A stretch of 64,000 nt of DNA, from NCBI RefSeq assembly GCF_023015865.1, contig NZ_JALKBC010000002.1, positions 248,001 through 312,000 on the forward strand, read 5' to 3'. Made by a program: the position numbers and the translations under genes. Position 1 is the first letter of the stretch. Every line of letters begins with the position of its first letter. The notes beneath the pieces are model-generated. The model did not search any database. It had not been told where the DNA came from and saw only the letters and a program-made list of their open reading frames with translations. This document shows positions 29,951 to 47,303 of the stretch, one piece after another. Source of the DNA: Arenibacter sp. F26102. Its GTDB lineage: Bacteria > Bacteroidota > Bacteroidia > Flavobacteriales > Flavobacteriaceae.

Positions 29951-29995
29951 TATGATTTTTATCATGTTTTTTGTTTCAATGGCAGCCTAATTTTG
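29951..29995 (+). promoter_or_regulatory. Crp/Fnr-type site and -7 element before the nos operon
   Basis: TGAT-TTTT-ATCA (29953-29964; FNR-like half sites) is centred 36.5 bp upstream of the end of TAATTTTG (29988-29995). With transcription starting about 5 bp after the -7 element, the site is centred near -41.5, the class II activator position. It replaces the -33 element, which is absent. The first codon downstream is at 30113. Confidence 0.7.
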
Positions 29996-30112: not shown

Positions 30113-30619
30113 ATGAAAATAATTTTAAAAAGTAGCGCAGTTCTTTTTTCGGTTTTGATGATGAGCTGTGGTGGTAAAGAAGAAAAGAAAAAAGAAGGTT
30201 TTAGTGTAGATAGGGCAAAAACTACAACCGAGCAACCTGCACCCAATCCGGCGGAAGTAACTACCAAGGCTTCAGAGACCATTGATTTAACCAATAAGGG
30301 GGTGGGGCCAATTACCTCTGTAACCTTGGCGGCCGAAATTGATCAAGAAATGGCTAAAAAAGGTGAGGAAATATACGGTCAAATGTGTTTGGCCTGCCAT
30401 AGAGTTGGTAAGAAGTTCATTGGGCCGGCCCCAGATGGTGTCTTGGAAAGACGTAGTCCGGAATGGGTCATGAACATGATTTTGAATCCTGAGGTTATGG
30501 TTAAGGAAGATCCATTGGCAAAAGCATTATTGGCAGAGTTTAACGGCGCTCCAATGGCCAATCAAAATCTAACCGAAGAACAGGCAAGAGCAGTATTGGA
30601 ATATTTTAGAACCTTATAA
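30113..30619 (+). CDS. c-type cytochrome lipoprotein of the nos cluster
   Basis: 168 residues; lipobox LMMSC followed by a basic and Pro/Thr-rich linker, then a mono-heme cytochrome c domain (about 80-168) with CLACH in IYGQMCLACHRVGKKFIGP and a Met ligand region NGAPMANQNLTEEQARAVLEYF. It is the first gene after the Crp/Fnr-type site and lies 18 bp before the fasciclin gene, ahead of nosZ. A natural role is electron donor to NosZ in the periplasm, replacing NosR which is absent here. Confidence 0.9.
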   Translation: MKIILKSSAVLFSVLMMSCGGKEEKKKEGFSVDRAKTTTEQPAPNPAEVTTKASETIDLTNKGVGPITSVTLAAEIDQEMAKKGEEIYGQMCLACHRVGKKFIGPAPDGVLERRSPEWVMNMILNPEVMVKEDPLAKALLAEFNGAPMANQNLTEEQARAVLEYFRTL

Positions 30620-30637
30620 AATTAAATATATACAACT

Positions 30638-31219
30638 ATGTTTCCGACCAATTACATAAAATTAATGGTGGTGTCATTTTTTATTCTGGGCCTTACGTCC
30701 GGTTGTAAAAATGAATCAAAAACGACAACGACTCCAAATTCTGACAATGTAGGAACGGAAGAGGTGGAAAAGCAGGGACAAGCCTACATAGAGAATGATG
30801 GTTCTACCCCTAATGTATTGCAAATTGCCATAGGCTCCCCGGACCATACCACTTTAGTGGCGGCCGTGCAGGCTGCACAATTGGAAAACGTTTTGGTAAA
30901 TGCAGGTCCCCTAATGGTATTTGCACCTACGAATGAGGCTTTTGCCGCACTACCGGCAGGTACTGTGGAAGATCTTTTAAAACCGGAGAACAAAGACGCT
31001 TTGGCAAATATTCTAAAATATCATGTTACCGCTGGTAATTACAGCAAGGAATTTTTAATGAAGTTTAAAAAATTGGGGCAGGCCAATGATCAGAACGTTG
31101 CCGTTGAGGTAGTAGGGGAAGATGTTTTGGTAGGAGGCGCTAAAATTTTGGCCAGTGTACCTGCGGGCAATGGAATAGTACATGTGGTAGACAAGGTAAT
31201 GTTACCTACTACAGAATAA
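30638..31219 (+). CDS. Fasciclin-domain lipoprotein
   Basis: 193 residues; lipobox LTSGC, a Thr/Asn-rich linker, and one FAS1 domain (about 60-193): TLVAAVQAAQLENVLVNAGPL, VFAPTNEAFAALPAGTVEDLLKPENKDALANILKYHV and NGIVHVVDKVMLP. FAS1 domains mediate extracellular protein or surface binding. It lies between the cytochrome c gene and nosZ in the same operon, a position that suggests a scaffold or docking role at the outer face of the inner membrane (inference). No metal motif is visible. Confidence 0.9.
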   Translation: MFPTNYIKLMVVSFFILGLTSGCKNESKTTTTPNSDNVGTEEVEKQGQAYIENDGSTPNVLQIAIGSPDHTTLVAAVQAAQLENVLVNAGPLMVFAPTNEAFAALPAGTVEDLLKPENKDALANILKYHVTAGNYSKEFLMKFKKLGQANDQNVAVEVVGEDVLVGGAKILASVPAGNGIVHVVDKVMLPTTE

Positions 31220-31253
31220 CTATAAAACTCAATAAACAATTAAATTATAAACA

Positions 31254-33215
31254 ATGAAAAAATATACTTATTTAGTACTAGGATTCTTAGGCTTTGCCGG
31301 CTTATTGACGAGTTGCGGTAACGGTAACCAAGGTAAAGGTTCTTCCGGGGCATTAAACTCGAGCAATGCCGAAAAAGTCTATGTGGCTCCAGGGGAACAT
31401 GATGAATTTTACGCTTTCATGTCTGGAGGATATAGTGGCAATTTAACAGTTTACGGCCTGCCATCTGGACGTATGTTCAAGGAAATTCCCGTATTCTCAC
31501 AATTTCCCACTTCGGGCTATGGCTATTCTGAAGAAACAAAGCCTATGTTAAATACCTCTCACGGGTTTGTGCCCTGGGATGATTCCCACCACCCAGATAT
31601 TTCGCAAACTAACGGAGAACTGGATGGACGCTGGATCTTTATTAATGGTAATAATACACCAAGGATTGCACGGATAAGCTTAACGACCTTTGAAACAGAA
31701 GAGATTATTGAGGTGCCCAATAGTGCCGGTAATCACAGTTCATCTTTTGTTACAGAGAATTCTGAATATGTTGTGGCTGGAACACGCTTTTCGGTACCTA
31801 TTCCACAGCGTGATATGCCCATAAACGAGTATAAAGGAAACTTTCAAGGGGCTCTATCTTTCATAAGTGTTGAGCCCGAACACGGCCATATGGATATTAA
31901 ATTCCAAATCATAATGCCTGGGTTTAACTATGATCTTTCGCATCCCGGACGTGGAAAATCCCATGGTTGGTTCTTCTTTACTACCTATAATACTGAGGAA
32001 GCCAGTACATTACAAGAAGTGAATTCTTCCCAGAACGACAAAGATTTTATAGCCGCTATAAACTGGAAAAAGGTTGAGGAGTATGTTAACAATGGTGGAG
32101 GAACCAAAATGCCGGCCAATTACGCGCATAACGTATATGATGAGTCTACACATACAGCAACAAGTACCATGAAAAAAGAAGTACTTACAGTAAACCCACT
32201 AGATGTACCTGGCGCGGTATTCTTTCTGCCAACTCCAAAATCTCCCCACGGTTGTGATGTTGATCCTTCTGGAGAATACATCATTGGTAATGGTAAATTA
32301 TCTGCGGACTTAACAATACACTCTTTTGATAATATGATTGCTGCTATTGAGGGTAAAAAGTTTGATGGTGAGGCGTATGGTATACCTATCTTGAAATTTG
32401 AAGATGTACTTGCCGGGACGGTAAAAAGTGGTGGTCTTGGGCCATTGCATACCGAGTTTGATGGTGAGGGCAATGCATATACTACCTTCTTTATTTCTTC
32501 GGAAGTTGTAAAATGGAAATTGGGGACTTGGGAGGTTATCGATAGAAAACCAACTTATTACTCTGTAGGTCACTTGATGATTCCAGGTGGAAATTCAAGA
32601 AAACCTTTTGGAAAGTATGTAGTAGCACTTAATAAGATTACAAAAGATAGGTATTTACCAGTTGGTCCAGAGATGGAGCACTCGGCTCAGATTTATGATA
32701 TCTCTGGTGAAAAAATGGAACTTCTTTATGATTTCCCTACTCATGGGGAGCCACATTATGCAGCAGGAATCCCAGCTGAATTGTTGGCTCCTAAATCGAA
32801 AAAGTTTTATAAACTCTCAGAAAACAAACACCCCTACGCTACTTTAGGAGCAAATGATGCCAAAGTGGTACGTGAAGGTAAAGATGTACATATTTATATG
32901 TCAACGATACGAAGCCATTTTACCCCCGATAACATTGAAGGTGTCAAGGTAGGTGACAAGGTGTATTTTCATATAACGAATCAAGAGCAGGATTTTGATG
33001 TACCACACGGTTTTGCTGTGATAGGAGCAAATACCTCAGAATTGTTGGTTATGCCAGGGCAGACCAAGACAATAATTTGGGAGCCTAAGCAAGTTGGGGT
33101 ATGGCCGTTCTATTGTACCGATTTCTGTTCTGCTCTTCACCAGGAGATGCAAGGTTATGTTAGGGTTTCACCGGCAAGTTCCAATTTGGAAATTTCATGG
33201 TCCCTAGGCGATTAG
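31254..33215 (+). CDS. nosZ: Nitrous oxide reductase, Sec-dependent (clade II)
   Basis: 653 residues. Reduces N2O to N2 in the periplasm. The N-terminus MKKYTYLVLGFLGFAGLLTSCG is a Sec/lipoprotein-type signal with no twin arginine, the mark of clade II (atypical) NosZ. The seven-bladed propeller with the CuZ histidines includes DDSHHPD, GNHSSSFV, HPGRGKSHGWFFFT and KSPHGCDVDPSGEYI. The C-terminal cupredoxin CuA domain has H585 (DVPHGFAV) and the C621-x3-C625-x3-H629-x2-M632 set in CTDFCSALHQEM. Catalytically complete. It is followed by an intrinsic terminator and the accessory genes nosL, nosD, nosF, nosY. Confidence 0.97.
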   Translation: MKKYTYLVLGFLGFAGLLTSCGNGNQGKGSSGALNSSNAEKVYVAPGEHDEFYAFMSGGYSGNLTVYGLPSGRMFKEIPVFSQFPTSGYGYSEETKPMLNTSHGFVPWDDSHHPDISQTNGELDGRWIFINGNNTPRIARISLTTFETEEIIEVPNSAGNHSSSFVTENSEYVVAGTRFSVPIPQRDMPINEYKGNFQGALSFISVEPEHGHMDIKFQIIMPGFNYDLSHPGRGKSHGWFFFTTYNTEEASTLQEVNSSQNDKDFIAAINWKKVEEYVNNGGGTKMPANYAHNVYDESTHTATSTMKKEVLTVNPLDVPGAVFFLPTPKSPHGCDVDPSGEYIIGNGKLSADLTIHSFDNMIAAIEGKKFDGEAYGIPILKFEDVLAGTVKSGGLGPLHTEFDGEGNAYTTFFISSEVVKWKLGTWEVIDRKPTYYSVGHLMIPGGNSRKPFGKYVVALNKITKDRYLPVGPEMEHSAQIYDISGEKMELLYDFPTHGEPHYAAGIPAELLAPKSKKFYKLSENKHPYATLGANDAKVVREGKDVHIYMSTIRSHFTPDNIEGVKVGDKVYFHITNQEQDFDVPHGFAVIGANTSELLVMPGQTKTIIWEPKQVGVWPFYCTDFCSALHQEMQGYVRVSPASSNLEISWSLGD

Positions 33216-33240
33216 TTTTACTTAAATTTTGTTTTTAATA

Positions 33241-33280
33241 AAAAAAAGCGGGTCTGGTTTAACTATCTGCCCGCTTTTTT
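33241..33280 (+). terminator. Intrinsic terminator after nosZ
   Basis: AAGCGGG and CCCGCTT arms around a 17-nt loop, flanked by A and T runs. Some read-through or a separate promoter must serve the downstream nos genes. Confidence 0.75.
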
Positions 33281-33347
33281 AACAAGTTAAAGAATAGGAA
33301 AACCATCCAAAACATTTTTCGATTTGTAACTTATAAAGACCGCAGTA

Positions 33348-33992
33348 ATGAAAAAAGCAAGTTTATTAATGATTATAGGCCCATTGTTTTTATTGGGTTT
33401 GTTTGCCTTTCCTTTATGGAATATTATGTTGGGTGCACCACAGTATCCCGAGCCATTGGGAATGAATATACATATCTCGGGAATTCAGGGTGTCTCGGAA
33501 TTTGATCTGCAGAATATAGACGGGCTCAATCATTATATAGGAATGAAGACCATACCTAAACCTGGTGAAATGTGGGAATTTAATATTTTCCCCAAGGTTA
33601 TTATCGGAATGATAGTCTTCGGGGTACTTATAGGGCTGCTGGGATTTTATGGAAAAGTAGATTACAAATGGTTTTTGGGCTGGTTTCTTCTAATGTCTAT
33701 TTTAGGAATATTGGGTATGTACGATTTTAATGTATGGTTAACGGACTATGGCTCCAATTTAGATCCCCACGCCATTATAAAAGTGGTTAATGAGGATGGA
33801 ACGCCAATGACTTATAAACCGCCCTTGTTTGGGAATCAAAAGATGTTGAATTTTGACGTAACTTCACTTCCAAGTTTTGGTGCATACGCCATGTTTGTTG
33901 GCATGGCACTTACTTTGGCAGCTTCATATTTAGGCTGGAAAAGCACGAGGTCCGTTGTAAAACAGGAGCCAAAAGAAGCGGTTGCCGCATAA
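33348..33992 (+). CDS. Membrane protein of the nos cluster (NosB-like position)
   Basis: 214 residues with about four transmembrane helices: SLLMIIGPLFLLGLFAFPLW at the N-terminus, FPKVIIGMIVFGVLIGLLGF, FLGWFLLMSILGILGMYDF and YAMFVGMALTLAASYLGW. Two extracytoplasmic loops contain APQYPEPLGMNIHISGI and YGSNLDPHAIIKV. Clade II nos clusters often have a membrane protein right after nosZ (NosB), which this may be; I cannot confirm homology. The next gene is nosL, 18 bp away. Role probably in electron supply or NosZ maturation (inference). Confidence 0.7.
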   Translation: MKKASLLMIIGPLFLLGLFAFPLWNIMLGAPQYPEPLGMNIHISGIQGVSEFDLQNIDGLNHYIGMKTIPKPGEMWEFNIFPKVIIGMIVFGVLIGLLGFYGKVDYKWFLGWFLLMSILGILGMYDFNVWLTDYGSNLDPHAIIKVVNEDGTPMTYKPPLFGNQKMLNFDVTSLPSFGAYAMFVGMALTLAASYLGWKSTRSVVKQEPKEAVAA

Positions 33993-34010
33993 TTTTAAAA
34001 AATTGAAGGT

Positions 34011-34445
34011 ATGGTGAACTACAGAATACTTATTTTTTTATTCCTATTATTTGCTTCTTCCTGTGGTATAGGTCCTCAACCCATAGTATATGGATCTGAT
34101 GGATGTCACTTCTGTAGTATGACCATTGTGGATAGGCAACATGCAGCCGAAATTGTTACGGATAAAGGAAAGGTCTTTAAGTTCGATTCAACTGAATGTA
34201 TGATGAATCACGTCAAGGATTTGGACCAGAAGCAGATTGCGCTTTACCTGGTAAACGATTTTGACCAACCAGGGGAATTGATCAATGCTACCAAAGCAAC
34301 CTATCTTATAAGTAACCGCCTTCCAAGCCCGATGGGCGAATTTTTAACTGCTTTTAAGACCGAAAAGGCCGCTGTGGATGCCCTTATGATATATGAGGGG
34401 GACTTAATGACCTGGGAACAATTAAAACTGAGATTTCAATTGTAG
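34011..34445 (+). CDS. nosL: NosL copper chaperone lipoprotein
   Basis: 144 residues; lipobox LFASSC. The NosL Cu(I) site is in GSDGCHFCSMTIVDRQHAAEIV (C-x2-C-x-M), followed by FKFDSTECMMNHVKD, a hallmark of NosL where the Met/Cys residues complete the site. NosL delivers copper to apo-NosZ for assembly of the CuZ center in the periplasm. It is 18 bp after the NosB-like gene and shares the accessory operon. Confidence 0.93.
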   Translation: MVNYRILIFLFLLFASSCGIGPQPIVYGSDGCHFCSMTIVDRQHAAEIVTDKGKVFKFDSTECMMNHVKDLDQKQIALYLVNDFDQPGELINATKATYLISNRLPSPMGEFLTAFKTEKAAVDALMIYEGDLMTWEQLKLRFQL

Positions 34446-34469
34446 GCAATTGGAAAACAGCATATTGGT

Positions 34470-34571
34470 ATGAAAGGTAGGGTAAACTACCACCAGAACC
34501 CAAAAGTTACAGTTTTTCGCCTCTCAGGACTACCCATTTTTAAAATATTATTGATTAAAACAATACAATAA
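34470..34571 (+). CDS. Candidate 33-aa small ORF between nosL and cupin
   Basis: ATG 34470 to TAA 34571, two bases before the cupin ATG (TAACCATG). The product starts MKGRVNYHQNPKVTV and ends with a short hydrophobic/basic stretch IFKILLIKTIQ. The tight spacing suggests coupling, but there is no homology I know of, so it may be only a leader. Confidence 0.25.
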   Translation: MKGRVNYHQNPKVTVFRLSGLPIFKILLIKTIQ

Positions 34572-34573
34572 CC

Positions 34574-34867
34574 ATGTACACCATTAATAGTCAGATTAAA
34601 AATCAGGAATACAATAAGCTTCAGGTAAACAAATTGGTTAAAACAGAAGTTCTGGAGATATTGAACATCAGCCTGGAAAAAGGAGCTGTTTTTCCTGAGC
34701 ATATTGCTCCTACAGATGCGCAATTGATCGTTCTGGAAGGGGAAATCATCTTTCATATCAATGGTAAATCCTATCCTATAAAAAAGCAACAGCACTTTAG
34801 TTTTCCAAAAGAAGTACCTCATTGGGTGTCTGCCGAAGAAAACTCAAAATTTTTGATCATTAGATAA
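34574..34867 (+). CDS. Small single-domain cupin protein
   Basis: 97 residues, cytoplasmic. A cupin barrel: SLEKGAVFPEHIAPTDAQLIVLEGEIIFHINGKSYPI is motif 1 (G-x5-H-x4-D variant) and FSFPKEVPHWVSAEENSKFLII is motif 2 with a His. The metal ligand set is incomplete (one His, Asp, one His), so it could be a binding protein. Its stop overlaps the nosD start by one base (TAATG type junction), which places it in the nos operon. A second, different small cupin lies in the facing NO-stress operon at 41.4 kb. Confidence 0.8.
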   Translation: MYTINSQIKNQEYNKLQVNKLVKTEVLEILNISLEKGAVFPEHIAPTDAQLIVLEGEIIFHINGKSYPIKKQQHFSFPKEVPHWVSAEENSKFLIIR

Positions 34868-36105
34868 TGGGAAAAATAAGTGTTTTAGTTGGCTTTGTTC
34901 TGCTACTCTTTGGGAATCATTTATGGGCCCGGACTATAACGGTCTGTAATACCTGTGAGGTGAAAACTATTAAGGAAGGCGTAGCAGTGGCCGCTGATTA
35001 TGATACACTGTTGATTAAAAAAGGGACCTACCGGGAATTTAATATTCAGGTGAATAAACCCTTGACCATTATAGGGGAAAACTATCCAGTTATTGATGGG
35101 GAAGATCAAGGAGAAATCTTTACAATAGTTTCAAATAATGTTACCATAGACGGATTGTACATTATAAACGTCGGTACCAGTTATACATCGGATTATGCCG
35201 CAATTAGGGTAGTAAAGAGCGAAAATTTTCTGATACAGAATATGGTTTTGGAAAAGTTGTTTTTTGGTATTTATCTGGAAAAGTGCAAGAACGGTGAGGT
35301 ATATAACAATAAGGTTATAGGGGATGCTGTGGATGAATATAATTCTGGTAATGGAATACAATTGTGGTATTCCCAAAACATTGTGGTGAAGAACAATATT
35401 GTTCAGCATGTACGGGATGGCATCTATTTGGAGTTCTCGGATAACATAACAATTGAAAACAATATTAGTTCCGACAATCTTCGCTATGGGTTGCATTTTA
35501 TGTTTTCCAATGATGACATCTATAAGAACAATACCTTTGAAAACAATGGGGCAGGGGTTGCGGTCATGTTTTCCAAAAGAATAAAAATGTTGGGCAATAC
35601 CTTTAAGAAAAATTGGGGAGCCGCCTCATTTGGACTGTTGTTAAAAGAAATAAATGATGCCGAAATTACGGGCAATTCTTTTGAAGAGAATACTATAGGC
35701 ATCAGTATTGAAGGATCCAACAGGATAAATTATTCAAAAAATAACTTTATAAAAAATGGTTGGGCCATTAAAGTACGTGGAGCCTGTTACACCAATACCT
35801 TTATACATAATAATTTTATGTACAACTCCTTTGATTTGGCTTACAATAGTAATCTGAACGATAATATATTTGAAGAGAACTACTGGAGCAATTATACGGG
35901 CTATGATCTGGACAGGAACGGCACTGGGGATATTCCCTATAGACCCGTAAAGTTATTTTCTTACATAGTAAACAGAACCCCCGAGACAATTATACTGTTG
36001 CGCAGTTTATTTATGGATATTATTGATTTTTCAGAAAAGGTATCCCCTGTATTTACACCGGATGAATTAGTTGATGCAAAACCGTTAATGAAAAAGATCA
36101 AATGA
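34867..36105 (+). CDS. nosD: NosD, periplasmic beta-helix accessory protein
   Basis: 412 residues with a signal peptide (ISVLVGFVLLLFGNHLWA). The body is a right-handed parallel beta-helix built from repeated N-x-I/V...N-N turns, e.g. NFLIQNMVLEKLFFGIYLEKC, GIQLWYSQNIVVKNNIV and NDAEITGNSFEENTIGISIEG, ending in the NosD/CASH signature NYWSNYTGYDLDRNGTGDIPYRP. With NosF and NosY it forms the ABC complex needed for sulfide/copper center assembly of NosZ. Its stop overlaps the nosF start by 4 bp. Confidence 0.95.
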   Translation: MGKISVLVGFVLLLFGNHLWARTITVCNTCEVKTIKEGVAVAADYDTLLIKKGTYREFNIQVNKPLTIIGENYPVIDGEDQGEIFTIVSNNVTIDGLYIINVGTSYTSDYAAIRVVKSENFLIQNMVLEKLFFGIYLEKCKNGEVYNNKVIGDAVDEYNSGNGIQLWYSQNIVVKNNIVQHVRDGIYLEFSDNITIENNISSDNLRYGLHFMFSNDDIYKNNTFENNGAGVAVMFSKRIKMLGNTFKKNWGAASFGLLLKEINDAEITGNSFEENTIGISIEGSNRINYSKNNFIKNGWAIKVRGACYTNTFIHNNFMYNSFDLAYNSNLNDNIFEENYWSNYTGYDLDRNGTGDIPYRPVKLFSYIVNRTPETIILLRSLFMDIIDFSEKVSPVFTPDELVDAKPLMKKIK

Positions 36106-36812
36106 TACACGTTGAAAGTTTACATAAGAAATTTGGCAAAAATGAAGTATTGTCCGGATTGGAACTCGATATCCACCAAGGCGGTATTTTTGCCATACTT
36201 GGGCCCAATGGCTCGGGTAAAACGACGCTGATCAAGACTATCCTGGGAATGGTGATTCCCAACAAAGGAACTATTTCTGTAATGGATTCCTTGGTTAAAA
36301 ATAAGTGGAAGTATCGTCAGGATATAAATTACCTTCCCCAAATTGCCAATTTTCCAGGAAACCTTAAGGTCAGGGAATTAATAGAAATGATAAAGGACAT
36401 AAGGCAAAAACCCAGTGAAGAGCAAAAGCTTATAAGCCTCTTTGGGCTGGAGCCTTTTTTGGACAAAAAATTGAGCAACCTTTCCGGAGGTACCAAGCAA
36501 AAGGTGAATATAGTACTGACCTTTATGTTCGACAGTCCTTTGATTATTTTGGACGAACCCACCAATGGTCTAGATCCCTTGGCACTAATTCGTCTCAAGG
36601 AACTTATTGCAGAGGAAAAGGCCAGGGGCAAAACCTTTTTGATTACCTCCCATATTATGCAGTTCGTTGAAGAAGTTTCCGATGAGGTCGTTTACCTTCT
36701 CGAAGGTGAAATCTATTTTAAGGGAAGTATTGCCGAGCTTAAAATTAAAACAGGACAAACCAATTTTGAACATGCCATCGCGGCAATATCAACCCATAAC
36801 AAGCATGATTAA
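36102..36812 (+). CDS. nosF: NosF, ABC transporter ATPase
   Basis: 236 residues with all ABC motifs: Walker A GPNGSGKTT (about 35-43), Q-loop YLPQIANFPG, signature NLSGGTKQK, Walker B SPLIILDEPTNGLDP and the switch ITSHI. It energises the NosDFY complex from the cytoplasm. The ATG at 36102 overlaps the nosD stop (ATGA), and the stop overlaps the nosY start by 8 bp, showing translational coupling. Length normal for NosF. Confidence 0.95.
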   Translation: MIHVESLHKKFGKNEVLSGLELDIHQGGIFAILGPNGSGKTTLIKTILGMVIPNKGTISVMDSLVKNKWKYRQDINYLPQIANFPGNLKVRELIEMIKDIRQKPSEEQKLISLFGLEPFLDKKLSNLSGGTKQKVNIVLTFMFDSPLIILDEPTNGLDPLALIRLKELIAEEKARGKTFLITSHIMQFVEEVSDEVVYLLEGEIYFKGSIAELKIKTGQTNFEHAIAAISTHNKHD

Positions 36813-37587
36813 GATATTAAAATACAGTTTTTACGACCTAATGCGCAGTAGATGGAGTTATGTTTATTTCCTGTTCTATCTGTTGTTGGGGTTTGTACTG
36901 TTGTTTTTAAACAACGAGCTGTCCAAAGCGGTTATTACCCTAATGAATGTAATTATAGTCCTGGTGCCCTTGATAGGGACCATATTTGGTGTAATGTACT
37001 ATTACAACTCCAAAGAATTTACAGAACTTCTTTTGGCACAGCCCATTAAAAGGTCGTCCATATTTTTGGGGCAGTATTTTGGAGTGGCAGGTTCGCTTAC
37101 AATGAGCCTCGTGCTAGGTTTGGGAATCCCCTTTGCCTTGTACGGATTATTTGAAAGTAATGCCATTTGGGATTTTTCACTATTGTTGATTACTGGAGCC
37201 TTTTTAACCTTGATATTTACAGCAGTTGCTTTCAATATTGCCCTATCCAATGAAAATAGGATTAAGGGTTTTGGGTATGCCGTATTGGCCTGGTTATTTT
37301 TGGCCGTAATCTATGACGGACTTTTTTTAATGTCGTTGATCGTTTTTGAGGAATATCCTTTAGACAGTTTTTCATTGGTAGCCACCATGTTTAATCCTAT
37401 AGATCTATCCAGGACCTTAATATTGCTGAAATTGGATATTTCCGCTCTATTGGGTTATACCGGAGCTATTTTTAAGCAGTTTTTCGGCACTAATTTAGGG
37501 CTTGTAATTTCTATTTGTACGCTGCTGCTATGGACTATAATCCCCGTTTGGAGGCTGGGTTATGTCGCAAAAAGAAAGGATTTTTAA
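36805..37587 (+). CDS. nosY: NosY, ABC-2 type permease
   Basis: 260 residues from the ATG at 36805 (MIKILKYSFYDLMRSRW); an open frame extends further upstream inside nosF but this start fits the family and the coupling. Six transmembrane helices: VYFLFYLLLGFVLLFL, VIIVLVPLIGTIFGVMYYY, GVAGSLTMSLVLGLGIPFALY, LLLITGAFLTLIFTAVAFN, YAVLAWLFLAVIYDGLFLMSL and a last LVISICTLLLWTIIPVWRLGY. It contains the conserved MYYYNSKEFTELLLAQP loop. It forms the membrane part of NosDFY. Confidence 0.93.
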   Translation: MIKILKYSFYDLMRSRWSYVYFLFYLLLGFVLLFLNNELSKAVITLMNVIIVLVPLIGTIFGVMYYYNSKEFTELLLAQPIKRSSIFLGQYFGVAGSLTMSLVLGLGIPFALYGLFESNAIWDFSLLLITGAFLTLIFTAVAFNIALSNENRIKGFGYAVLAWLFLAVIYDGLFLMSLIVFEEYPLDSFSLVATMFNPIDLSRTLILLKLDISALLGYTGAIFKQFFGTNLGLVISICTLLLWTIIPVWRLGYVAKRKDF

Positions 37588-39229: not shown

Positions 39230-39360
39230 AGTTTAAATTTAATTTCTTTGGGCAGATTACAAAGGTAGTTGGTTGAATTTTTAGTTATTGATAATTACTT
39301 TTTTAAATGGCAATAGGTATTCTTAGTATGTATAATTTCTACTTCTCGCCAGTCTCCTAA

Positions 39361-39702: not shown

Positions 39703-39707
39703 TTATT

Positions 39708-40001: not shown

Positions 40002-40011
40002 TTTTTTATTT

Positions 40012-40473
40012 TTACTCCCAAAACATATCGGAGTTATTATCCAAAAATTTGGTTTCTTCATGATGTTCCAAAAAGGATTCCATTTGTTGTTTGGTGGCCA
40101 CTTTCTGAATTTCATTGAAAAGTACCCTTTCCTCAAAACGGATATGCTGTTCCAATTCTTCCTCTATTAGGTTTAATGACTTTTTTAATTCTAAGGAGCT
40201 ATTGAATAACCGGTCCAGCCTTCTATGTTGTACGATGGCTTTTTTGACTAATTCATTATCGTTTCCCAATATGGGAAAGATGTATTTTTCCTCCTCTTTA
40301 AAATGTGGAATTAAATGGATTTTGTAAAACCAGTCAGTGTAGTTTTTTATGCGATCTACTGATATGCCTTTGGCAAATCCAGTCCTAATTTTCCAAGATA
40401 ACAGAAGTCCCTGATGATGGTCCCTGCTCAATGGTTGCAAAGCCTGATGTCTTTTAATAGGTTGGGTTTTCAT
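40012..40473 (-). CDS. Hemerythrin-domain protein
   Basis: 153 residues from the ATG at 40473 (an in-frame GTG at 40479 is an alternative). Four-helix di-iron site: H in PLSRDHHQGLLLSW, H in IHLIPHFKEEEKYIFPIL with the Glu of FKEEE, H in VQHRRLDRLF, H in LEQHIRFEERVLFNEIQ with Glu. The set HxxxE plus HFxxEE is that of bacterial hemerythrins, which bind O2 or NO or repair Fe-S centers. Cytoplasmic. First in a three-gene run with the membrane protein and ferredoxin, downstream of the RIC gene. Confidence 0.9.
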   Translation of the reverse strand: MKTQPIKRHQALQPLSRDHHQGLLLSWKIRTGFAKGISVDRIKNYTDWFYKIHLIPHFKEEEKYIFPILGNDNELVKKAIVQHRRLDRLFNSSLELKKSLNLIEEELEQHIRFEERVLFNEIQKVATKQQMESFLEHHEETKFLDNNSDMFWE

Positions 40474-40478
40474 AGTCA

Positions 40479-40598
40479 CTATTTTTTAGTTATCGCCCAA
40501 TGGTAGTGTTGGGCATTTTCTTTGTCATGGTATTCGTTAGCCTTTTGGTAAACAGGGACCAATACGGCACGGTCGGGGGGACTTTTAAGTAAAGTCAT
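40479..40598 (-). CDS. Candidate 39-aa small ORF before hemerythrin
   Basis: ATG 40598 to TAG 40479, ending 6 bp before the hemerythrin ATG. Translation starts MTLLKSPPDRAVLVPVYQK and ends QHYHWAITKK. No family known to me; the HYHW tail is notable next to iron proteins. Could also be an untranslated leader. Confidence 0.3.
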   Translation of the reverse strand: MTLLKSPPDRAVLVPVYQKANEYHDKENAQHYHWAITKK

Positions 40599-40668
40599 AA
40601 CCGGTACAGGATTGGTTTGCCTGTTTATTTATTAAATCATTTTGCTTATTGTTTCTTTATACTTGAAT

Positions 40669-41394
40669 TTAATCATTTAATACTTTTTCCAATTCTATGG
40701 CCTTTGGGAAGAGAATGTTATTTTCCAAATGTATATGTTTGTGCAAATCCTCTTCGAATTCCTGTAGTAGTGAAAATGTTACACGGTAAGTGTTGCAGGC
40801 GTCAGCTGGAGGGGTGTAATTATCACTTAATTCTGCTATTAACCTAAAGCGATCCCCTTCGTTCTCGTGTTCTTGCATCATCATTTGTATGGGATTCTGA
40901 ATTGTGCCGAAATTTTGTTGGGCCAGTGGATAACCTAGGTATTTGCTCTGAATCATTTTACGTACGGCAGGGAAAACAATTAGTTCCTCTTTTTTCATAT
41001 GCATGGCAAGTTCGCCAGCACTCTTGTTAAAATGCTCTGTAATTTCCAACAGTTCTGGATGTCGATCTCCATGAACTCTACATAGTTTGGCCAGATATTG
41101 ATTCAAAATAGGTATCTGCGCCTCTACATAGCGGTGATGTTTTTTCTCTATATAGTCAGCCAGTAGGTCCAATGGCCAAGTTTTGAAATCGATATTGCTA
41201 TCGTTTGTTTGATGCTGAACTGTTTCAATTTCTTGTAGCAGGAGATTGGCATCCAACTTATTTTTTTCGGCCACCTCTACAATGTTTCTATTGCCCTTAC
41301 AGCAAAAATCTATTTTGTGATTTTTGAATATTTGCGCTGTGCGATAGTTTTCCGCTACTATTTCTCCAATACTTTTGGTCATTAAATTTTCCAT
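40669..41394 (-). CDS. ric: Iron-sulfur cluster repair di-iron protein (RIC/YtfE/ScdA)
   Basis: 241 residues. The N-terminal ScdA_N domain has the motif KIDFCCKGNRNIVEVAEKN with the vicinal Cys pair; the C-terminal hemerythrin-like domain has the di-iron ligands in KKHHRYVEAQIPIL, CRVHGDRHPEL, MHMKKEELIVFPAV, MMQEHENEGDRF and DLHKHIHLENNILFPKA. RIC repairs Fe-S clusters damaged by NO or peroxide and can reduce NO. The gene follows the small cupin by 5 bp in an operon controlled, by position, by the Rrf2 regulator at 43.5 kb. Confidence 0.95.
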   Translation of the reverse strand: MENLMTKSIGEIVAENYRTAQIFKNHKIDFCCKGNRNIVEVAEKNKLDANLLLQEIETVQHQTNDSNIDFKTWPLDLLADYIEKKHHRYVEAQIPILNQYLAKLCRVHGDRHPELLEITEHFNKSAGELAMHMKKEELIVFPAVRKMIQSKYLGYPLAQQNFGTIQNPIQMMMQEHENEGDRFRLIAELSDNYTPPADACNTYRVTFSLLQEFEEDLHKHIHLENNILFPKAIELEKVLND

Positions 41395-41399
41395 GATTA

Positions 41400-41705
41400 T
41401 TAATTGTTAAAATTTATATTAGCATCTTTTGCCATTATGGCTACTGCTTGAAATTCTTCTAGTATGGTAAGACTGTGTTCCAATCCTGCAGGTACCAACA
41501 TTGAGGATCCTTTCTCCAATAGATATTCGGTTTCCTTGGCTTTAAGGATGGCTTTACCCTCCAGGACAACAATTACCGCTTCTGTGGTACTGTGATGCTT
41601 AGGCATGCCCGTCCCGGACAAGGCCTTAATTTGTAGGATTTTAAGATTTTCACCTACCTGCAGGTGTGTCAATTCTGGTCTGTTCAATACTTCCATAGTC
41701 TTCAT
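41400..41705 (-). CDS. Small cupin protein of the NO-stress operon
   Basis: 101 residues, cytoplasmic cupin with motif 1 GTGMPKHHSTTEAVIVVLEGKAIL (H-H-x4-E) and motif 2 GSSMLVPAGLEHSL (His). The ligands allow a mononuclear metal site, as in quercetinase-like proteins. The start codon at 41705 (or ATG at 41696) lies inside the 3' end of the upstream dioxygenase gene, an overlap of about 50 bp that implies translational coupling. Substrate unknown. It may work with the neighbouring heme and di-iron proteins. Confidence 0.8.
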   Translation of the reverse strand: MKTMEVLNRPELTHLQVGENLKILQIKALSGTGMPKHHSTTEAVIVVLEGKAILKAKETEYLLEKGSSMLVPAGLEHSLTILEEFQAVAIMAKDANINFNN

Positions 41706-43096: not shown

Positions 43097-43531
43097 TTAT
43101 CTTTTCAGATGGGTCAGGCCAATATCCAAGCCTGACGCCAATTCGTACAAGCTAGTGTTTTGTAGCATTATCTTTAGGTTGTCCCGGATCACTACAAATT
43201 TATGATGAACGGGACAAGGCTGTCTGGCATCACATTGTTTTAATCCTAATCCGCATCCATTAAAAATATCATCGCCATCAATGGCATGTACTATATCGTG
43301 TAATTTAATAATATCTATTCTGGATTCCTCAATCTGAAACCCACCTGTTGGACCCTTATGGGAATCTATAATGCCACTCTTGGCCAAAGACTGTAGTATC
43401 TTCGCAGTAAATGCTACTGGGGAATTCACTTCTTCCGCAATTTCTTTAAGGCTTACGCGCTCTTGGTGCATAGACTTAACAGCTATATATATGGTGGCTT
43501 TTATACCGTATTCGCAGGCTTTGGAAAACAT
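43097..43531 (-). CDS. Rrf2-family regulator, NsrR-like
   Basis: 144 residues from the ATG at 43531 (MFSKACEYGIKATIYIA); the open frame from 43585 adds residues not found in this family. Winged helix: VSLKEIAEEVNSPVAFTAKILQSLAKSGIIDSHKGPTGGFQ. The Fe-S cluster cysteines are in NGCGLGLKQCDARQPCPVHH, spacing C-x6-C-x5-C, close to NsrR/IscR-type (x5-7, x5). Loss or nitrosylation of the cluster would relieve repression. It sits at the head of the block membrane protein - TDO family - cupin - RIC, the classic NsrR target set, so it probably senses NO. Its own promoter contains a dyad (43560-43576). Confidence 0.88.
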   Translation of the reverse strand: MFSKACEYGIKATIYIAVKSMHQERVSLKEIAEEVNSPVAFTAKILQSLAKSGIIDSHKGPTGGFQIEESRIDIIKLHDIVHAIDGDDIFNGCGLGLKQCDARQPCPVHHKFVVIRDNLKIMLQNTSLYELASGLDIGLTHLKR

Positions 43532-43554
43532 AGTTACTCTAAGTTTGATCGAGA

Positions 43555-43586
43555 CAAATATAAGTTTTATTCTTATTTCGGACAAA
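43555..43586 (-). promoter_or_regulatory. Rrf2 gene promoter with dyad operator
   Basis: Minus strand: TTTG (43586-43583), 20 bp, then TATATTTG (43562-43555). The spacer contains ATAAG-N7-CTTAT (43576-43560), a perfect 5-bp dyad, suited to autorepression. Confidence 0.65.
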
Positions 43587-43665: not shown

Positions 43666-43709
43666 TGATATTTGTCATCTTTTAGTGTTTGTGGATTGTC
43701 CTATCTTTG
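43666..43709 (+). promoter_or_regulatory. Second Crp/Fnr-type site with -7 element (copper set)
   Basis: TGAT-ATTT-GTCA (43666-43677) is followed by TATCTTTG (43702-43709). The site centre is 37.5 bp upstream of the end of the -7 element, within one base of the arrangement before the nos operon (36.5 bp). This suggests common anaerobic or NO-dependent activation of nosZ and copper uptake. Confidence 0.6.
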
Positions 43710-43813: not shown

Positions 43814-44188
43814 ATGAAACAAGTAGTATTGTTTGTTGCATTGATCATGCTGATAAAGCCGCTTTGGCCTTTAGCAGAGTATGCGATAAATTATGACTAC
43901 ATAGTTGAGAATCTTTGTGAAAATAGGGATACTCCATCCTTACATTGTAATGGTAAATGCTATTTGGCGAAACAATTGGCCAAAGAATCGGAAGGGAGCG
44001 ATAAAAATCCTTTCGAGGGCAAGCGGTTCAACTTGGAAATCCAGTACATATCTTCATTCGAGCCATTAATGGTTTTTGGAGCTGGTAATGAATATGGAAA
44101 TAGCATTCAGAATAACTTTAAAAGAACCCAGATTCTAATTCCTGGGTTATACACTTCAGATATTGCACAGCCTCCCGAGCTGGGATAA
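43814..44188 (+). CDS. Small conserved protein with CxxxC motif upstream of Cu receptor
   Basis: 124 residues. An N-terminal hydrophobic segment (VVLFVALIMLIKPLWPLAEY) acts as a signal or anchor, then YIVENLCENRD and the central motif SLHCNGKCYLAKQLAKE with H-C-x3-C. The rest is polar and may be extended. I recognise the type: proteins of this kind, with HCNGKC, occur in Bacteroidota next to TonB-dependent metal receptors, but no function is assigned. The Cys/His site suggests copper or heme binding outside the cytoplasm. It follows the Crp/Fnr-type promoter and precedes the copper receptor. Confidence 0.7.
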   Translation: MKQVVLFVALIMLIKPLWPLAEYAINYDYIVENLCENRDTPSLHCNGKCYLAKQLAKESEGSDKNPFEGKRFNLEIQYISSFEPLMVFGAGNEYGNSIQNNFKRTQILIPGLYTSDIAQPPELG

Positions 44189-44400
44189 TTCAATTTTTGC
44201 CATGGTAGTTTTGGAATTATTGTAATTCCCATGTCACTACTATGCCAACTTAAAGGAATTGTATTGTCTAAAAAAATCAAATGAAAGATCGTAGCGTTAG
44301 CATACGCTCTTAATTTTGCAACTCACTTTTTTTAGATAATTAACTAAAATTTAAACGTGTGAAAATTATTAGATGTGCCCATAAAGTATGCTTAATACTT

Positions 44401-46422
44401 ATGGCAAAGAGCAAACCTATATCCAGGTTGGTGCTTTTGTTAGGGATATTACTATCACCTATTTACAATGTCGCACAGGAATTGGTTTTGCATAAGGATT
44501 CGATTATCACAATCAATTTGGATGAAGTTATCCTGATTTCGGCAAGAAAGGCATTGGATTACCATCGTCAGCCCAAACCCTTATCGACCTTGGATGAATA
44601 TTTGGAGTCGTCAAAAAAAGTGGACATGGTTAAACGTGGTGCCTATGCCTGGGAACCTACTTTGAACAATATGTTCTCTGAACGTCTTTCGGTTACCATA
44701 GATGGGATGAGGATTTTTGGTGCTTGTACGGATAAAATGGATCCCATAACTTCTTATGTGGATGTGTCCAATTTGTCAAAGGCCCACATTGCTTCCGGCC
44801 AACAGGGAGCGGAGCACGGTACTACCATTGGTGGCGCCATTAATTTGGAGCTGGATAGGGGTAATTTTAAGGAGACTGGATTATACGGCGGTTTGGAGAC
44901 CGGTTTTGAAAGTAACAGCCAGATGAGCGTTGTTGGTGCCGAGCTTAACTATTCCGATTCCCAATACTATGTGGATACCGATATTATTTATCGCAAGGCA
45001 GAAAATTATTTTGCAGGCGGTGATGAAGAAGTTCAGTTTTCCCAATTTGAAAAATATAATTTTTCTACCAATGGCGGTTATAAAATTACCGAAGGTCGGG
45101 CACTAACAGCGAGTATTATATTTGATGAGGCCAGGGATGTAGGCTATCCGGCATTAACTATGGATGTTTCTTTGGCCAGGGCCATTATCGCATCAATAGG
45201 TTTTGAACAGGATAATTTATGGGGCATTTTAAATAATTGGAAATCCAAGGTGTATTTTAATAAGGTTACCCATGTTATGGATGATACCAAAAGGCCCGAT
45301 GTACCCATTCATATGGATATGCCCGGTTGGAGCGATACCTATGGATTTTTCTCACAAGCCCTCCTAAAGATTAAAAAGCATCAATTTTTGTTCAAAGCGG
45401 ATGGCTATTACAACAAATCCTTGGCAGAAATGACAATGTATCCGAACGACCCCAATGAGTTGCCTATGTTTATGCTGACGTGGCCCGATGTACGTACCGC
45501 CAATGCTGGGATCTATTTAGAAGATGAGCTCAGTTTTAATGGAAGCTTTTTAAAAATAGCGACCAGAATGGCCGTGCAGAATCAGAATGTGGCGGACGAA
45601 TTTGGATTGAACAGTCTAAGGATTTTTTATCCTGATATGGAAAAATCCAAAACACGTTTCCTGAAAAGTATTTCTGGACAATGGCATAAAATGTGGATGC
45701 CCTTGCATTTCAATGCCGGACTATCCTATGGGGATAGGGCGCCTTCCGTTACTGAGGGTTATGGCTTTTATTTGTTCAATAGTTTTGATAACCACGATTA
45801 CATTGGGGATCCGGGACTTGTAAATGAAAAATCGATGGAGGCCAATACCAAGATTTCTTGGGAGAAGTCCAAATTTAAGGTGAGTGCAGAGGCCAATTAT
45901 TTTCACATTAAAGATTATATCATTGGAGAGGTTGATTCTTCCCTTAGTGTAATGACCATTGGTGCGGAAGGGGTCAAGATCTATAAAAATTTGGATTATG
46001 CCAATTTGTTCAACACTTCGTTGGATATGGAATACGCAGTTCTGCCAGAATTGAAATGGTCAGGATTAATTTCCTATCATCGCGGTACCGACAATAATCA
46101 GGAGAACATACCTTTTATAAGTCCATTTTCATATCGATCGGGTCTTCAATATGACAACAGGTCATTTTCAGCCGCTTTAAGGATAACGGGGGCAGCAAAA
46201 CAAGTTAACTATAATCCAGATTTTGGGGAGGATCAAACACAGGCATATACAGTGTGTTCCCTAACCTTAGGGAAAACCTTCAATTTTAATAACGATTCAA
46301 TGTATGCGAAATTCGGGGTGGAGAATATTTTTGATGAAAATTACTCCACGTACACCGATTGGAAAAATATTCCACGCATGGGAAGAAATTTCTTCTTAAC
46401 ACTTTCTTATTCAATAAATTAA
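44401..46422 (+). CDS. TonB-dependent copper receptor (OprC/NosA-like)
   Basis: About 673 residues from the ATG at 44401 (signal PISRLVLLLGILLSPIYNVAQ); a GTG at 44359 is possible. The plug domain contains ERLSVTIDGMRIFGACTDKMDPITS: the C109-x3-M113 pair (C-T-D-K-M) is the Cu site known from OprC/NosA, and HMDMPG later supplies a His/Met patch. The 22-strand barrel ends with YAKFGVENIFDENYSTYTDW ... FFLTLSYSIN. NosA is required for copper supply to NosZ in Pseudomonas stutzeri. Here it is encoded 7 kb from nosDFY and behind a promoter like that of nosZ, so it very likely imports copper for N2O respiration. Confidence 0.88.
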   Translation: MAKSKPISRLVLLLGILLSPIYNVAQELVLHKDSIITINLDEVILISARKALDYHRQPKPLSTLDEYLESSKKVDMVKRGAYAWEPTLNNMFSERLSVTIDGMRIFGACTDKMDPITSYVDVSNLSKAHIASGQQGAEHGTTIGGAINLELDRGNFKETGLYGGLETGFESNSQMSVVGAELNYSDSQYYVDTDIIYRKAENYFAGGDEEVQFSQFEKYNFSTNGGYKITEGRALTASIIFDEARDVGYPALTMDVSLARAIIASIGFEQDNLWGILNNWKSKVYFNKVTHVMDDTKRPDVPIHMDMPGWSDTYGFFSQALLKIKKHQFLFKADGYYNKSLAEMTMYPNDPNELPMFMLTWPDVRTANAGIYLEDELSFNGSFLKIATRMAVQNQNVADEFGLNSLRIFYPDMEKSKTRFLKSISGQWHKMWMPLHFNAGLSYGDRAPSVTEGYGFYLFNSFDNHDYIGDPGLVNEKSMEANTKISWEKSKFKVSAEANYFHIKDYIIGEVDSSLSVMTIGAEGVKIYKNLDYANLFNTSLDMEYAVLPELKWSGLISYHRGTDNNQENIPFISPFSYRSGLQYDNRSFSAALRITGAAKQVNYNPDFGEDQTQAYTVCSLTLGKTFNFNNDSMYAKFGVENIFDENYSTYTDWKNIPRMGRNFFLTLSYSIN

Positions 46423-46440
46423 TTTTAATAATAAACAAAA

Positions 46441-47303
46441 TGAAAACAATAAAACCATTTATAGTAATATTCATAGTAGCCTTGGTATTAAGTTCCTGCA
46501 CATCGGACGGTGACGATTCGCCAAAAATTGAAGAAAATCCAATGGCAGAATTTAATTTGCTTTCAAACATCGAGGCCAACGGGCACAGTTTGGAGCTATA
46601 TTCCAAGGGTAAGAAGGGTTTTACTACCGGATACAATGAAATATTTGTACGTATTAAAGACAATGCCGACGCAAGCTATTTTACCGATCCGGAAATTTCA
46701 TGGCTGCCGGTTATGCATATGACAAGTATGAACCATTCGTGTCCAAAATCAGATCTTAGTATTACGGAAGAAAACAATACGGTTTCAAAGGGATACCTTG
46801 TATTTCAAATGGCCGGAAATACGGATGAATTTTGGGACATAACTTTTACATATATCGTTGACGGGCAGGAATATTCTTTGACGGAAACCATAGATGTTGT
46901 AGCCCCCAGTGATGGTAAACAAAAGGTTAGTTCGTTTATGGGCAGTGATGATGTAATGTATGTCCTGGCTATGGTGGAACCTTCAGATCCACAAGTTGCT
47001 GTTAACGATATACAGGCAATTTTGTTTAAAATGGAAAATATGATGAGCTTTCCAGCAGTGGAAAATTACACCATTGCACTTGATCCCCGTATGCCAAGTA
47101 TGGGTAACCACAGTTCCCCCAACAATGTGGATTTAACCTTTGATGCCGCAGCCAAAAGTTATAATGGAAAATTGTCTTTGACAATGACGGGGTATTGGAA
47201 GCTTAATTTAAGGTTGCTTAATGGCAATGGAGAGGTGTTGAAAGGCGAAGAGGTTACGGATGAAAACGAAGCCAGTAGTTTGTATTTTGAATTGGAGTTT
47301 TAG
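46441..47303 (+). CDS. Met/His-rich lipoprotein, copper receptor partner
   Basis: 287 residues from ATG 46441; lipobox VLSSC. Two immunoglobulin-like beta domains of about 120 residues each, the first with the metal-type string LPVMHMTSMNHSCPKSD, the second with DPRMPSMGNHSSPNNVDL, so each carries a Met-x-Met/His cluster of the kind found in CopC, YtkA and FixH-type copper proteins. The C-terminal strand YNGKLSLTMTGYWKLNLRLL is FixH-like. It starts 18 bp after the receptor stop and is probably co-transcribed. A plausible function is to hand copper from the receptor to NosL/NosZ; this is inference. Confidence 0.75.

Follow-up and report, generated by a model that had tools for sequence, protein, structure and literature searches.

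The window, a stretch of 64,000 nucleotides from the marine bacterium Arenibacter sp. F26102, contains a three-gene operon behind a Crp/Fnr-type site (Table 1). The genes encode a small protein with a CxxxC motif, a TonB-dependent receptor and, 17 bases after the receptor gene, a lipoprotein. All three ORFs were found as the earlier note had claimed, and the nos genes are indeed neighbours: the nos cluster extends to about 37.6 kb, and NO-stress-type genes and an Rrf2 regulator occupy the interval up to the copper operon. Within the cluster, cytochrome c, the fasciclin protein, NosZ, NosL and NosD were assigned through Pfam/NCBIfam, and NosF and NosY from sequence and position.

Table 1. Features of the copper operon and the nos region in the window.
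Feature	Position	Strand	Remarks
Crp/Fnr-type site ahead of the nos operon	29953..29964	+	same type as the site of the copper operon; -7 box TAATTTTG at 29988-29995
nos cluster	30113..37587	+	cytochrome c, fasciclin protein, NosZ, orf214, NosL, NosD, NosF, NosY
NosZ	31254-33215	+	Pfam/NCBIfam
NosL	34011-34445	+	Pfam/NCBIfam
NosD	34867-36105	+	Pfam/NCBIfam
Rrf2-family regulator	43097..43585	-	divergent from the operon; Pfam Rrf2 E 4e-24
Crp/Fnr-type palindrome TGAY-N4-RTCA, TGATATTTGTCA	43666..43677	+	upstream of the copper operon
Bacteroidota-type -7 box TATCTTTG	43702..43709	+	3' of the Crp/Fnr-type site
Putative copper-sensing leader ORF (CxxxC)	43814..44188	+	124 aa; invariant columns, Pro-Pro signature
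OprC-type TonB-dependent copper receptor	44359..46422	+	likely true start ATG 44401; phmmer and ligand conservation
Lipoprotein, two CrdA/YtkA-like domains, Met/His clusters	46440..47303	+	287 aa, ATG start; probably surface exposed

The receptor was related to OprC by phmmer (E 6e-18), and its start at ATG 44401 was favoured because the signal peptide, judged by eye, seems to begin there. C123-x3-M127 aligned with C143 and M147 of OprC and H305-x-M307 with H323 and M325, the four copper ligands named in the available text of PMC8610252. These four residues were invariant in 35 receptor sequences and kept in 8/8 distant relatives aligned at 25–29% identity. The alignments of receptors, of 39 lipoproteins and of 44 leaders were hand-picked for spread from the best 80 of 105 relatives. 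Against NCBIfam TIGR01778 the receptor scored 137.6 bits, under the cut-off of 472.45. By sequence, the receptor is of the OprC type and not a TIGR01778 equivalog, and copper import is predicted for it; the OprC/NosA-like receptor with a C-x3-M site that the earlier note described was thus borne out, with all four OprC ligands retained.

In the lipoprotein, M92, M94 and H99 and likewise M218, M221 and H224 were invariant in all 39 sequences, that of the window included. Its AlphaFold2 model (mean pLDDT 91) matched the copper protein CrdA (9ll2) over residues 37–153, with Z 13.4, rmsd 2.6 and 105 residues aligned to a chain of 108, the next row standing at 9.1. When the whole lipoprotein was searched by Foldseek, CrdA ranked 24 (E 8e-4) with its whole domain covered and a TM-score of 0.76 of the target; the top rows (antibody, retromer and other beta-sandwich chains) had TM-scores of at most 0.31 and were rejected. 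The CrdA fold match concerns domain 1, and domain 2 is supported by weak sequence matches. A weak YtkA match was present in 38/39 lipoproteins (13.2 bits in that of the window, under the Pfam cut-off of 25.9), and a profile comparison of the two domains was weak (E 2.7e-4, probability 41%) and aligned their Met/His motifs. Judged from sequence and model together, the lipoprotein is a protein of two tandem CrdA/YtkA-like domains.

Lipoprotein and receptor had the same distribution, both being present in one set of 78 out of 397 family genomes (with a 20.5 kb limit set by hand). We separated a core lipoprotein (E below 1e-70) from a divergent group (1e-61 and weaker), and before counting we removed five weak NosZ matches (E 1e-88 to 1e-100) from the 181. 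NosZ was encoded in 59/65 genomes with the core lipoprotein, compared with 176/397 overall (both 59, core only 6, nosZ only 117, neither 215; odds ratio 18, p 1.5e-17). The association held after collapsing to genera (46/3/78/110, p 4e-12) and in a sample of the phylum (14/19 vs 50/154, p 7.5e-4). The co-occurrence check proposed with the earlier note thus found the genes rarely without nosZ (6/65 core-lipoprotein genomes). The core set is not required for NosZ, since 117/176 nosZ genomes were without it, and the divergent group had no link to nosZ (6/14). Two loci from distant Bacteroidota, L131 and L132, carried both genes within the nos operon, with nosL on one side and nosD on the other. 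In L133–L137 both genes adjoined nos; no nos gene was present in 5/12 fetched loci of the phylum sample.

The Fnr-type site that had been noted upstream was confirmed as a Crp/Fnr-type palindrome, TGATATTTGTCA, which is far above chance across relatives. In 68/77 loci, many of them close relatives, such a site lay in the 300 bases preceding the leader start; the control rates were 4.5% for random windows of 300 bases and 2.7% for shuffles. The stricter form TTGAY-N4-RTCAA was absent from the 64-kb window. The -7 box TATCTTTG was called with what we take to be the Bacteroidota -7 consensus. A -7 box followed 28–31 bases from the site in 52/77 leader loci (shuffled control 0.65%); in nos operons the site was found in 32/34 and a -7 box at 29 bases in 30/34, so that leader and nos promoters had nearly equal geometry, with a spacing of about 29–30 bases. 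The spacing at 43666-43709 fits the class II (about -41.5) activator position relative to a predicted start. In the divergent group, where start codons are uncertain, the site was found in 0/9 loci with a recognised leader. The proposed link to N2O respiration is well supported by the nosZ association, the in-operon synteny and the shared promoter architecture.

A broader role is possible, and we give it a definite but minority weight: the genes may provide general low-copper uptake for several copper enzymes, for instance heme-copper oxidases, with N2O reduction as one client. The core set was present in six family genomes without nosZ, five of them 99–100% complete, and 7/80 loci (the best 80 of 105 relatives) came from genomes without a NosZ match; the divergent group is independent of nosZ, and OprC itself is found in non-denitrifiers according to the available text of PMC8610252. 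Such a role sits poorly with the strong nosZ association, the location of the genes inside nos operons or next to them in several families, and the shared Crp/Fnr architecture. Heme-copper oxidases, being to our knowledge near universal in Flavobacteriaceae, would not produce a nosZ-linked pattern.

An acidic pair, [DE]2, stood near the N-terminus in 63/79 lipoproteins (16/79 were without it), compared with 0/20 NosL and 0/32 NosZ; the N-terminus in the window is CTSDGDDSP, and SDDFE and SDDDD are given as Bacteroidota surface-export signals in the literature excerpts available. Because the N-terminus of most relatives resembles such a signal, we favour a surface capture partner over a periplasmic shuttle: the lipoprotein probably faces outwards and serves the receptor, as sequence and analogy suggest. 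The earlier note had seen in it a candidate shuttle that would carry copper from the receptor to NosL. Its Met/His clusters (MHMTSMNHSC and MPSMGNHSS) are conserved in 39 sequences and of a copper-binding type, and they and the CrdA/YtkA-like domains would suit a copper carrier; CrdA is termed periplasmic in the available text of PMC9182242, and the L131 and L132 genes come after nosL and encode lipoproteins whose mature N-terminus, as located by a simple pattern, is without an acidic run. The shuttle role appears less likely to us, given that most relatives have a run of acidic residues close behind the lipidated cysteine and NosL and NosZ do not, that the lipoprotein pairs exactly with the receptor (78/78) and that it occurs also in genomes without nosZ.

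The first gene looks like a copper gauge more than a working protein. It has a hydrophobic N-terminus, C35, C45-x3-C49 and P120 P121, followed by ELG and the stop codon. In the alignment of 44 sequences (mean identity 32%), C35 and the Pro-Pro were the only invariant positions besides the CxxxC motif used to find members. A PP within the last eight residues was present in 77/78 leader candidates and in 35/1307 other ORFs (leaders removed), lying 64–70 residues after the last cysteine and using all four proline codons. The predicted fold was poorly ordered (pLDDT 57, pTM 0.25), and the leader came first wherever it was matched among the loci of the best 80 of 105 relatives, whichever of receptor and lipoprotein was next. 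The signal-like N-terminus (by eye), the metal motif, the C-terminal proline motif and a same-strand gene within 1000 bases downstream are all features of CutF-like leaders. The small CxxxC protein of the earlier note is better read as a leader ORF: it is probably a nascent-chain copper sensor of the CutF/CruR type, not a carrier, as its sequence and model suggest. We consider it quite improbable that the ORF is a folded periplasmic copper chaperone with an incidental Pro-Pro; its export-like N-terminus and a CxxxC, common in copper proteins, would suit one, but the few invariant positions, the codon usage and spacing of the Pro-Pro, the poor fold and the leading position do not.

The leader family was found in at least 237/397 family genomes. 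Among phylum-sample loci, 2/12 had a recognisable leader-like ORF of the family (L137, itself from the Flavobacteriaceae, and L140), so the leader seems to be a later addition to the set. No DUF2946 match was obtained in Pfam or NCBIfam for any of the 44 members at E up to 0.1, and no other named family gave a credible match, apart from a few weak single-member ones. A conserved stem-loop after the leader stop was considered and rejected, as folding z-scores of 78 leader regions equalled those of 200 control post-stop regions (means -1.88 vs -1.98, p 0.41). A post-leader hairpin is strong in some Arenibacter sequences, with a few compensatory pairs. A terminator-like match at 44293-44308 was discarded because the stretch is absent from the close relative L003.

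That the lipoprotein sequesters copper for resistance has very little in its favour beyond its best structural match, the Helicobacter pylori copper resistance determinant CrdA, given its constant pairing with an OprC-type importer in the family set, its frequent association with nos genes and the lack of an efflux gene within the three-gene operon.

With moderate confidence, we therefore read the locus as a Bacteroidota operon for copper acquisition whose expression is induced along with N2O respiration. The analysis shows the gene pairing, the conserved ligands, the modelled fold, a promoter architecture common to both operons, and the co-occurrence and synteny of the genes; the mechanism that follows is our proposal. 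A Crp/Fnr-family activator would turn on the copper operon and the nos promoter together. The cysteines of the nascent leader chain would sense copper as translation slows at the C-terminal Pro-Pro, making downstream expression copper-dependent. The lipoprotein would lie on the external side of the outer membrane, capture copper and hand it to the CxxxM-HxM site of the receptor, and TonB-driven transport would supply periplasmic copper for loading NosL and NosZ.

All the parts belong to known kinds, and what is new is a variation on them, in the combination and in the lipoprotein; judged by listings, the literature searched held no description of the lipoprotein or of the leader-receptor-lipoprotein set. 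The receptor family and the CxxxM-HxM ligands are shared with OprC/NosA of Pseudomonas, which are expressed anaerobically and repressed by copper (PMC8610252, available text), whereas here the host is a Bacteroidota, the lipoprotein partner is strict and the receptor falls below the TIGR01778 cut-off. An OprC-type receptor with CxxxM-HxM is reported for Bizionia in the available text of PMC11213822. The leader shares with proteobacterial CutF/CruR the export-type N-terminus, the cysteine and C-terminal proline motifs and the first position in copper operons, often with a long gap before the next gene. CruR has CXXC about 45 residues ahead of RAPP; the putative leaders here have CxxxC and 64–70 residues, PP without RA and no DUF2946 match. 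CutF-like proteins of Bacteroidota have already been catalogued, as excerpts of the literature indicate, and RAPP/RGPP-type copper leaders are reported, in the available text of PMC12992588, as not found in several groups including Bacteroidota. The lipoprotein resembles CrdA/YtkA-like proteins in fold and Met-rich motif but has two tandem domains, a lipid anchor, a receptor partner and histidines in both clusters; the CrdA motif has none in the available text of PMC9182242. CrtA of Bordetella is likewise a copper TonB receptor serving respiratory copper enzymes, and a cruR leader precedes it in more than 40% of its operons, but in the excerpts available it lacks conserved Cys and Met residues and is partnered by a PepSY_TM protein. 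Adjacent genes, strict pairing and a surface-type lipoprotein in Bacteroidota recall BtuB-BtuG and SusC-SusD, although the ligand here would be copper and the pairing is seen in the genes. The lipoprotein fold is presumably unlike those of BtuG and SusD. By analogy we suggest, tentatively and with slightly less than even confidence, that the operon encodes the copper equivalent of the BtuB-BtuG 'pedal bin', in which a surface lipoprotein of two CrdA-like domains would feed the OprC-type receptor. Control would be exerted both by a Crp/Fnr activator, for respiration, and by the leader as nascent-chain copper sensor, and the whole would be a dedicated NosZ supply in Bacteroidota.

N2O is a potent greenhouse gas. 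The only enzyme sink known for it, NosZ, is rich in copper, so that copper supply can limit this sink. Work on nosA in two Pseudomonas stutzeri strains gave differing results, and whether outer-membrane copper receptors serve NosZ is disputed (PMC8610252, available text). Since operon structure and promoter architecture here connect both a receptor and its lipoprotein partner with nos, this question becomes testable in culturable flavobacteria, and the leader family is a candidate copper-sensing leader for Bacteroidota.

Lipoprotein matches at E ≤1e-8 and receptor matches at E ≤1e-150 came from an identical set of 78 among the 397 Flavobacteriaceae genomes. The receptor adjoined the lipoprotein in 78 of 80 loci, the best 80 of 105 lipoprotein relatives, and the two exceptions (L038 and L065) were short contigs. 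Gene order within the pair varied between loci, and the leader ORF, where matched in the 80 loci, stood before whichever of the two genes came next.

NosZ matches were obtained from 181 of the 397 genomes, of which five weak ones (E 1e-88 to 1e-100) were dropped, leaving 176. Core lipoproteins (E <1e-70) were present in 65 genomes, 59 with and 6 without NosZ; 117 genomes had NosZ only and 215 had neither (odds ratio 18, p 1.5e-17). Collapsed to genera, these counts were 46, 3, 78, and 110 (p 4e-12), the only co-occurrence test here that does not ignore tree structure. For all lipoproteins (78 genomes), the counts were 64, 14, 112, and 207 (p 4e-14), and the divergent group (E 1e-61 and weaker) by itself showed no NosZ link (6 of 14). 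The earlier note had tied the copper genes to N2O respiration, a link that would be refuted if they were common in genomes without nosZ; core genes without nosZ were uncommon in the family set, and the link mainly stands.

The two gene sets were often close together. NosZ was located ≤20.5 kb away in 38 of the 52 core genomes for which the matches listed gave its position. Among the 80 loci, NosZ lay inside the fetched flank in 32 and elsewhere in the genome for 41 of the other 48; two of these 41 matches span less than half the query, and a stop codon interrupts the reading frame of one. The remaining seven genomes, six MAGs and one isolate (Frigoriflavimonas), had no NosZ. Of 173 genomes sampled from the phylum, 19 had the lipoprotein, 64 had NosZ, and 14 had both (p 7.5e-4); some of these NosZ matches were ~42% identical and contained an in-frame stop, and three of the 19 lipoprotein genomes were also in the family set. 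Loci were fetched from 12 of the 19. The receptor–lipoprotein pair was inside the nos operon, with nosL and nosD on either side, in L131 and L132, divergent from it in L133, L134, and L137 (the last from the same family), and beside it in L135 and L136. No nos genes were found within the fetched stretches of the other five (L138–L142), and the genomes of L138 and L142 carried NosZ elsewhere.

All features named in the earlier note were present in the window. The host genome is Arenibacter-like, and within the named collection, from which the host's own record was possibly excluded, the lipoprotein was closest to that of Arenibacter arenosicollis (91%). The fasciclin-domain protein recurred in most nos loci among the 80 loci, and the position of orf214 was kept in the distant nos loci L131–L136. 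Relatives of the 405-aa membrane protein were matched in 21 of the 80 loci, often near ric. The genes between the nos and copper operons resemble NO stress responses.

Features of the nos and copper regions in the window.
Feature	Position	Description
Crp/Fnr-type site	29953	nos operon
nos cluster	~30.1–37.6 kb
Fasciclin-domain protein	30638–31219	between cytochrome c and nosZ
orf214	33348–33992	between nosZ and nosL; no Pfam match
405-aa membrane protein	37617–38834	beside nos and NO-response genes; no Pfam/NCBIfam match
Intervening genes	38831–41705 and 43097–43585	haemoglobin-like (by eye), ferredoxin, hemerythrin, RIC iron-sulphur repair, Rrf2
Crp/Fnr-type site	43666	copper operon
Leader ORF	43814–44188	124 aa; CxxxC
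Receptor	44359–46422	OprC type
Lipoprotein	46440–47303	287 aa

The copper and nos operons shared a promoter pattern. In 68 of 77 loci, a Crp/Fnr-type palindrome (TGAY-N4-RTCA) lay ≤300 bases from the start of the leader, compared with 4.5% of random windows and 2.7% of shuffles. A Bacteroidota-type -7 box followed the same site at 28–31 bases in 52 of the 77 (shuffled control 0.65%). The nos operons examined had the site in 32 of 34 and the box at 29 bases in 30 of 34. Of five sites in the window, three fell within listed ORFs and the other two belonged to the nos and copper operons. Across the 80 loci and the window, the site was present or absent in 64 and 2 loci with nosZ versus 3 and 3 without (p 0.003). 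The core family genomes without nosZ had it in L093, L094, and L038 (genome G381, as placed by contig and position), and not in L095, L096, and L097. The scan found no site in four core loci with nosZ (L035, L081, L092, and L098), nor in any of nine divergent-group loci with a recognised leader. Close relatives are numerous in all of these promoter counts. In the host, six Crp-type matches exceeded the cut-off, and the reading frame of one contains a stop.

The first ORF is probably a CutF/CruR-type copper-sensing leader. Searching for C.GKC near the receptor–lipoprotein pair gave 78 ORFs, 77 with Pro-Pro within the last 8 residues and one (L094) with it slightly earlier; among forward ORFs ≥70 aa of the same DNA, the frequency was 112/1385 including leaders and 35/1307 excluding them. 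The last cysteine and Pro-Pro were 64–70 residues apart. By pattern, 72 of the 80 loci had a candidate; on inspection, seven of the other eight had the same ending (two partly masked), and L050 starts too near the contig end. In an alignment of 44 leaders (32% mean identity), the sole invariant columns were C35, C45, G47, K48, C49, P120, and P121, four of them dictated by the search pattern, with C35 and Pro-Pro independent of it. All four proline codons were in use, and the predicted structure was poor (mean pLDDT 57, pTM 0.25). L033 and L034 each had two leader copies within one locus. Bordetella CruR has the same plan, combining a copper-sensing cysteine motif with a proline arrest motif that lies three residues from the end, and CruR relatives are found upstream of copper receptors, OprC types among them (PMC9426467). 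CutF combines CxxxC with a proline-rich C-terminus, and after normalisation to proteomes, Bacteroidota account for ~40% of the proteins that resemble CutF (PMC9973294). The leader is thus of a type for which in silico catalogues already exist, and on functional grounds high copper would be expected to turn the operon off, as with CruR.

As judged by sequence, the receptor is of the OprC type. Against solved structures (E up to 0.001) it matched OprC entries only (six distinct sequences, best E 6e-18), and C123, M127, H305, and M307 align with the four copper ligands of OprC as set out in PMC8610252. These residues were invariant in 35 selected receptors and also present in all eight distant receptors aligned (25–29% identity), and both ligand motifs were detected by pattern in four more loci (L136, L137, L140, and L142). 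Its score against the OprC equivalog model did not reach the cut-off, so by that test the receptor is no equivalog.

The lipoprotein is predicted to bind copper. Thirty-nine selected members could be aligned over almost their full length, with M92, M94, H99, M124 and M218, M221, H224, M249 invariant. In a confident AlphaFold2 model (mean pLDDT 91.2), residues 37–153 resembled Helicobacter pylori CrdA (9ll2; Z 13.4, rmsd 2.6, 105 residues aligned of a chain of 108), the next match reaching Z 9.1. CrdA is a copper-binding protein with a Met-rich motif (PMC9182242). By profile, the second domain weakly matched this CrdA chain (E 0.021) and, in 38 of 39 members, Pfam YtkA at E ≤1 (best 2.7e-10, just 0.15 for the window protein).

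Surface export in Bacteroidota is marked by acidic residues directly after the lipid-modified cysteine, as in QKDDE (Capnocytophaga), SDDFE (Flavobacterium johnsoniae), and SDDDD (B. fragilis) (PMC5080379). A simple lipobox pattern, run on 101 sequences (the window and L003–L102, some without the gene or its start), found 79 lipoproteins, of which 63 had an adjacent acidic pair soon after the cysteine (mean 2.87 acidic residues in six). The pair was seen in 0 of 20 NosL, 0 of 32 NosZ, and 1 of 19 fasciclin proteins, some of the latter with misplaced lipoboxes; 17 of 27 nos cytochromes c were positive, with the pair flanked by lysines, so the control was not clean throughout. Outside the family, the acidic run was present in, for example, L134 and L135 and absent from L131 and L132, the distant relatives within nos operons; some others yielded no usable start with the pattern. 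Given these counts, the imperfect control, and the two exceptions, the lipoprotein is likely surface-exposed in Flavobacteriaceae, and exposure is perhaps not general across relatives. Its role, surface capture or a periplasmic shuttle (the earlier note put forward a copper shuttle between receptor and NosL), is the least certain step of the proposed mechanism.

The leader family was wider than the pair, matching at least 237 of the 397 genomes (E up to 1e-4, up to 10 candidates scored per genome). We inspected 20 strong leader loci from genomes without the lipoprotein and scanned 10 downstream proteins. The leader was followed by MbnP with a MauG-like partner, other TonB receptors, PepSY_TM, or outer-membrane proteins. 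The MbnP arrangement was seen in L107–L110, L112, L113, L115, and L122, confirmed by Pfam in L107 (MbnP, E 3e-46) and called by sequence similarity in the others; several of these MbnP proteins had acidic N-termini after the lipid cysteine, making surface MbnP possible. The Crp/Fnr site preceded four of the 20 leaders (L111, L114, L118, and L120), and site and box together only those of L111 and L114, which both run into nosZ. In these two loci a different TonB receptor separates the leader from the genes for cytochrome c, fasciclin, and NosZ, perhaps another way of supplying NosZ with copper. In L120, a different TonB receptor separates the leader from a relative of cytochrome c.

The receptor, the leader, and the lipoprotein domain all belong to known types, and Bizionia was earlier noted to have a receptor of the OprC type (PMC11213822). 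Judged by search listings, the literature covered (mainly the main text of papers outside subscription) contains no report of a tandem CrdA-type lipoprotein, of its strict pairing with the receptor, or of nos wiring with the leader in Bacteroidota. Since most nosZ genomes are without the core set, it is an aid and not a requirement, presumably one for low copper.
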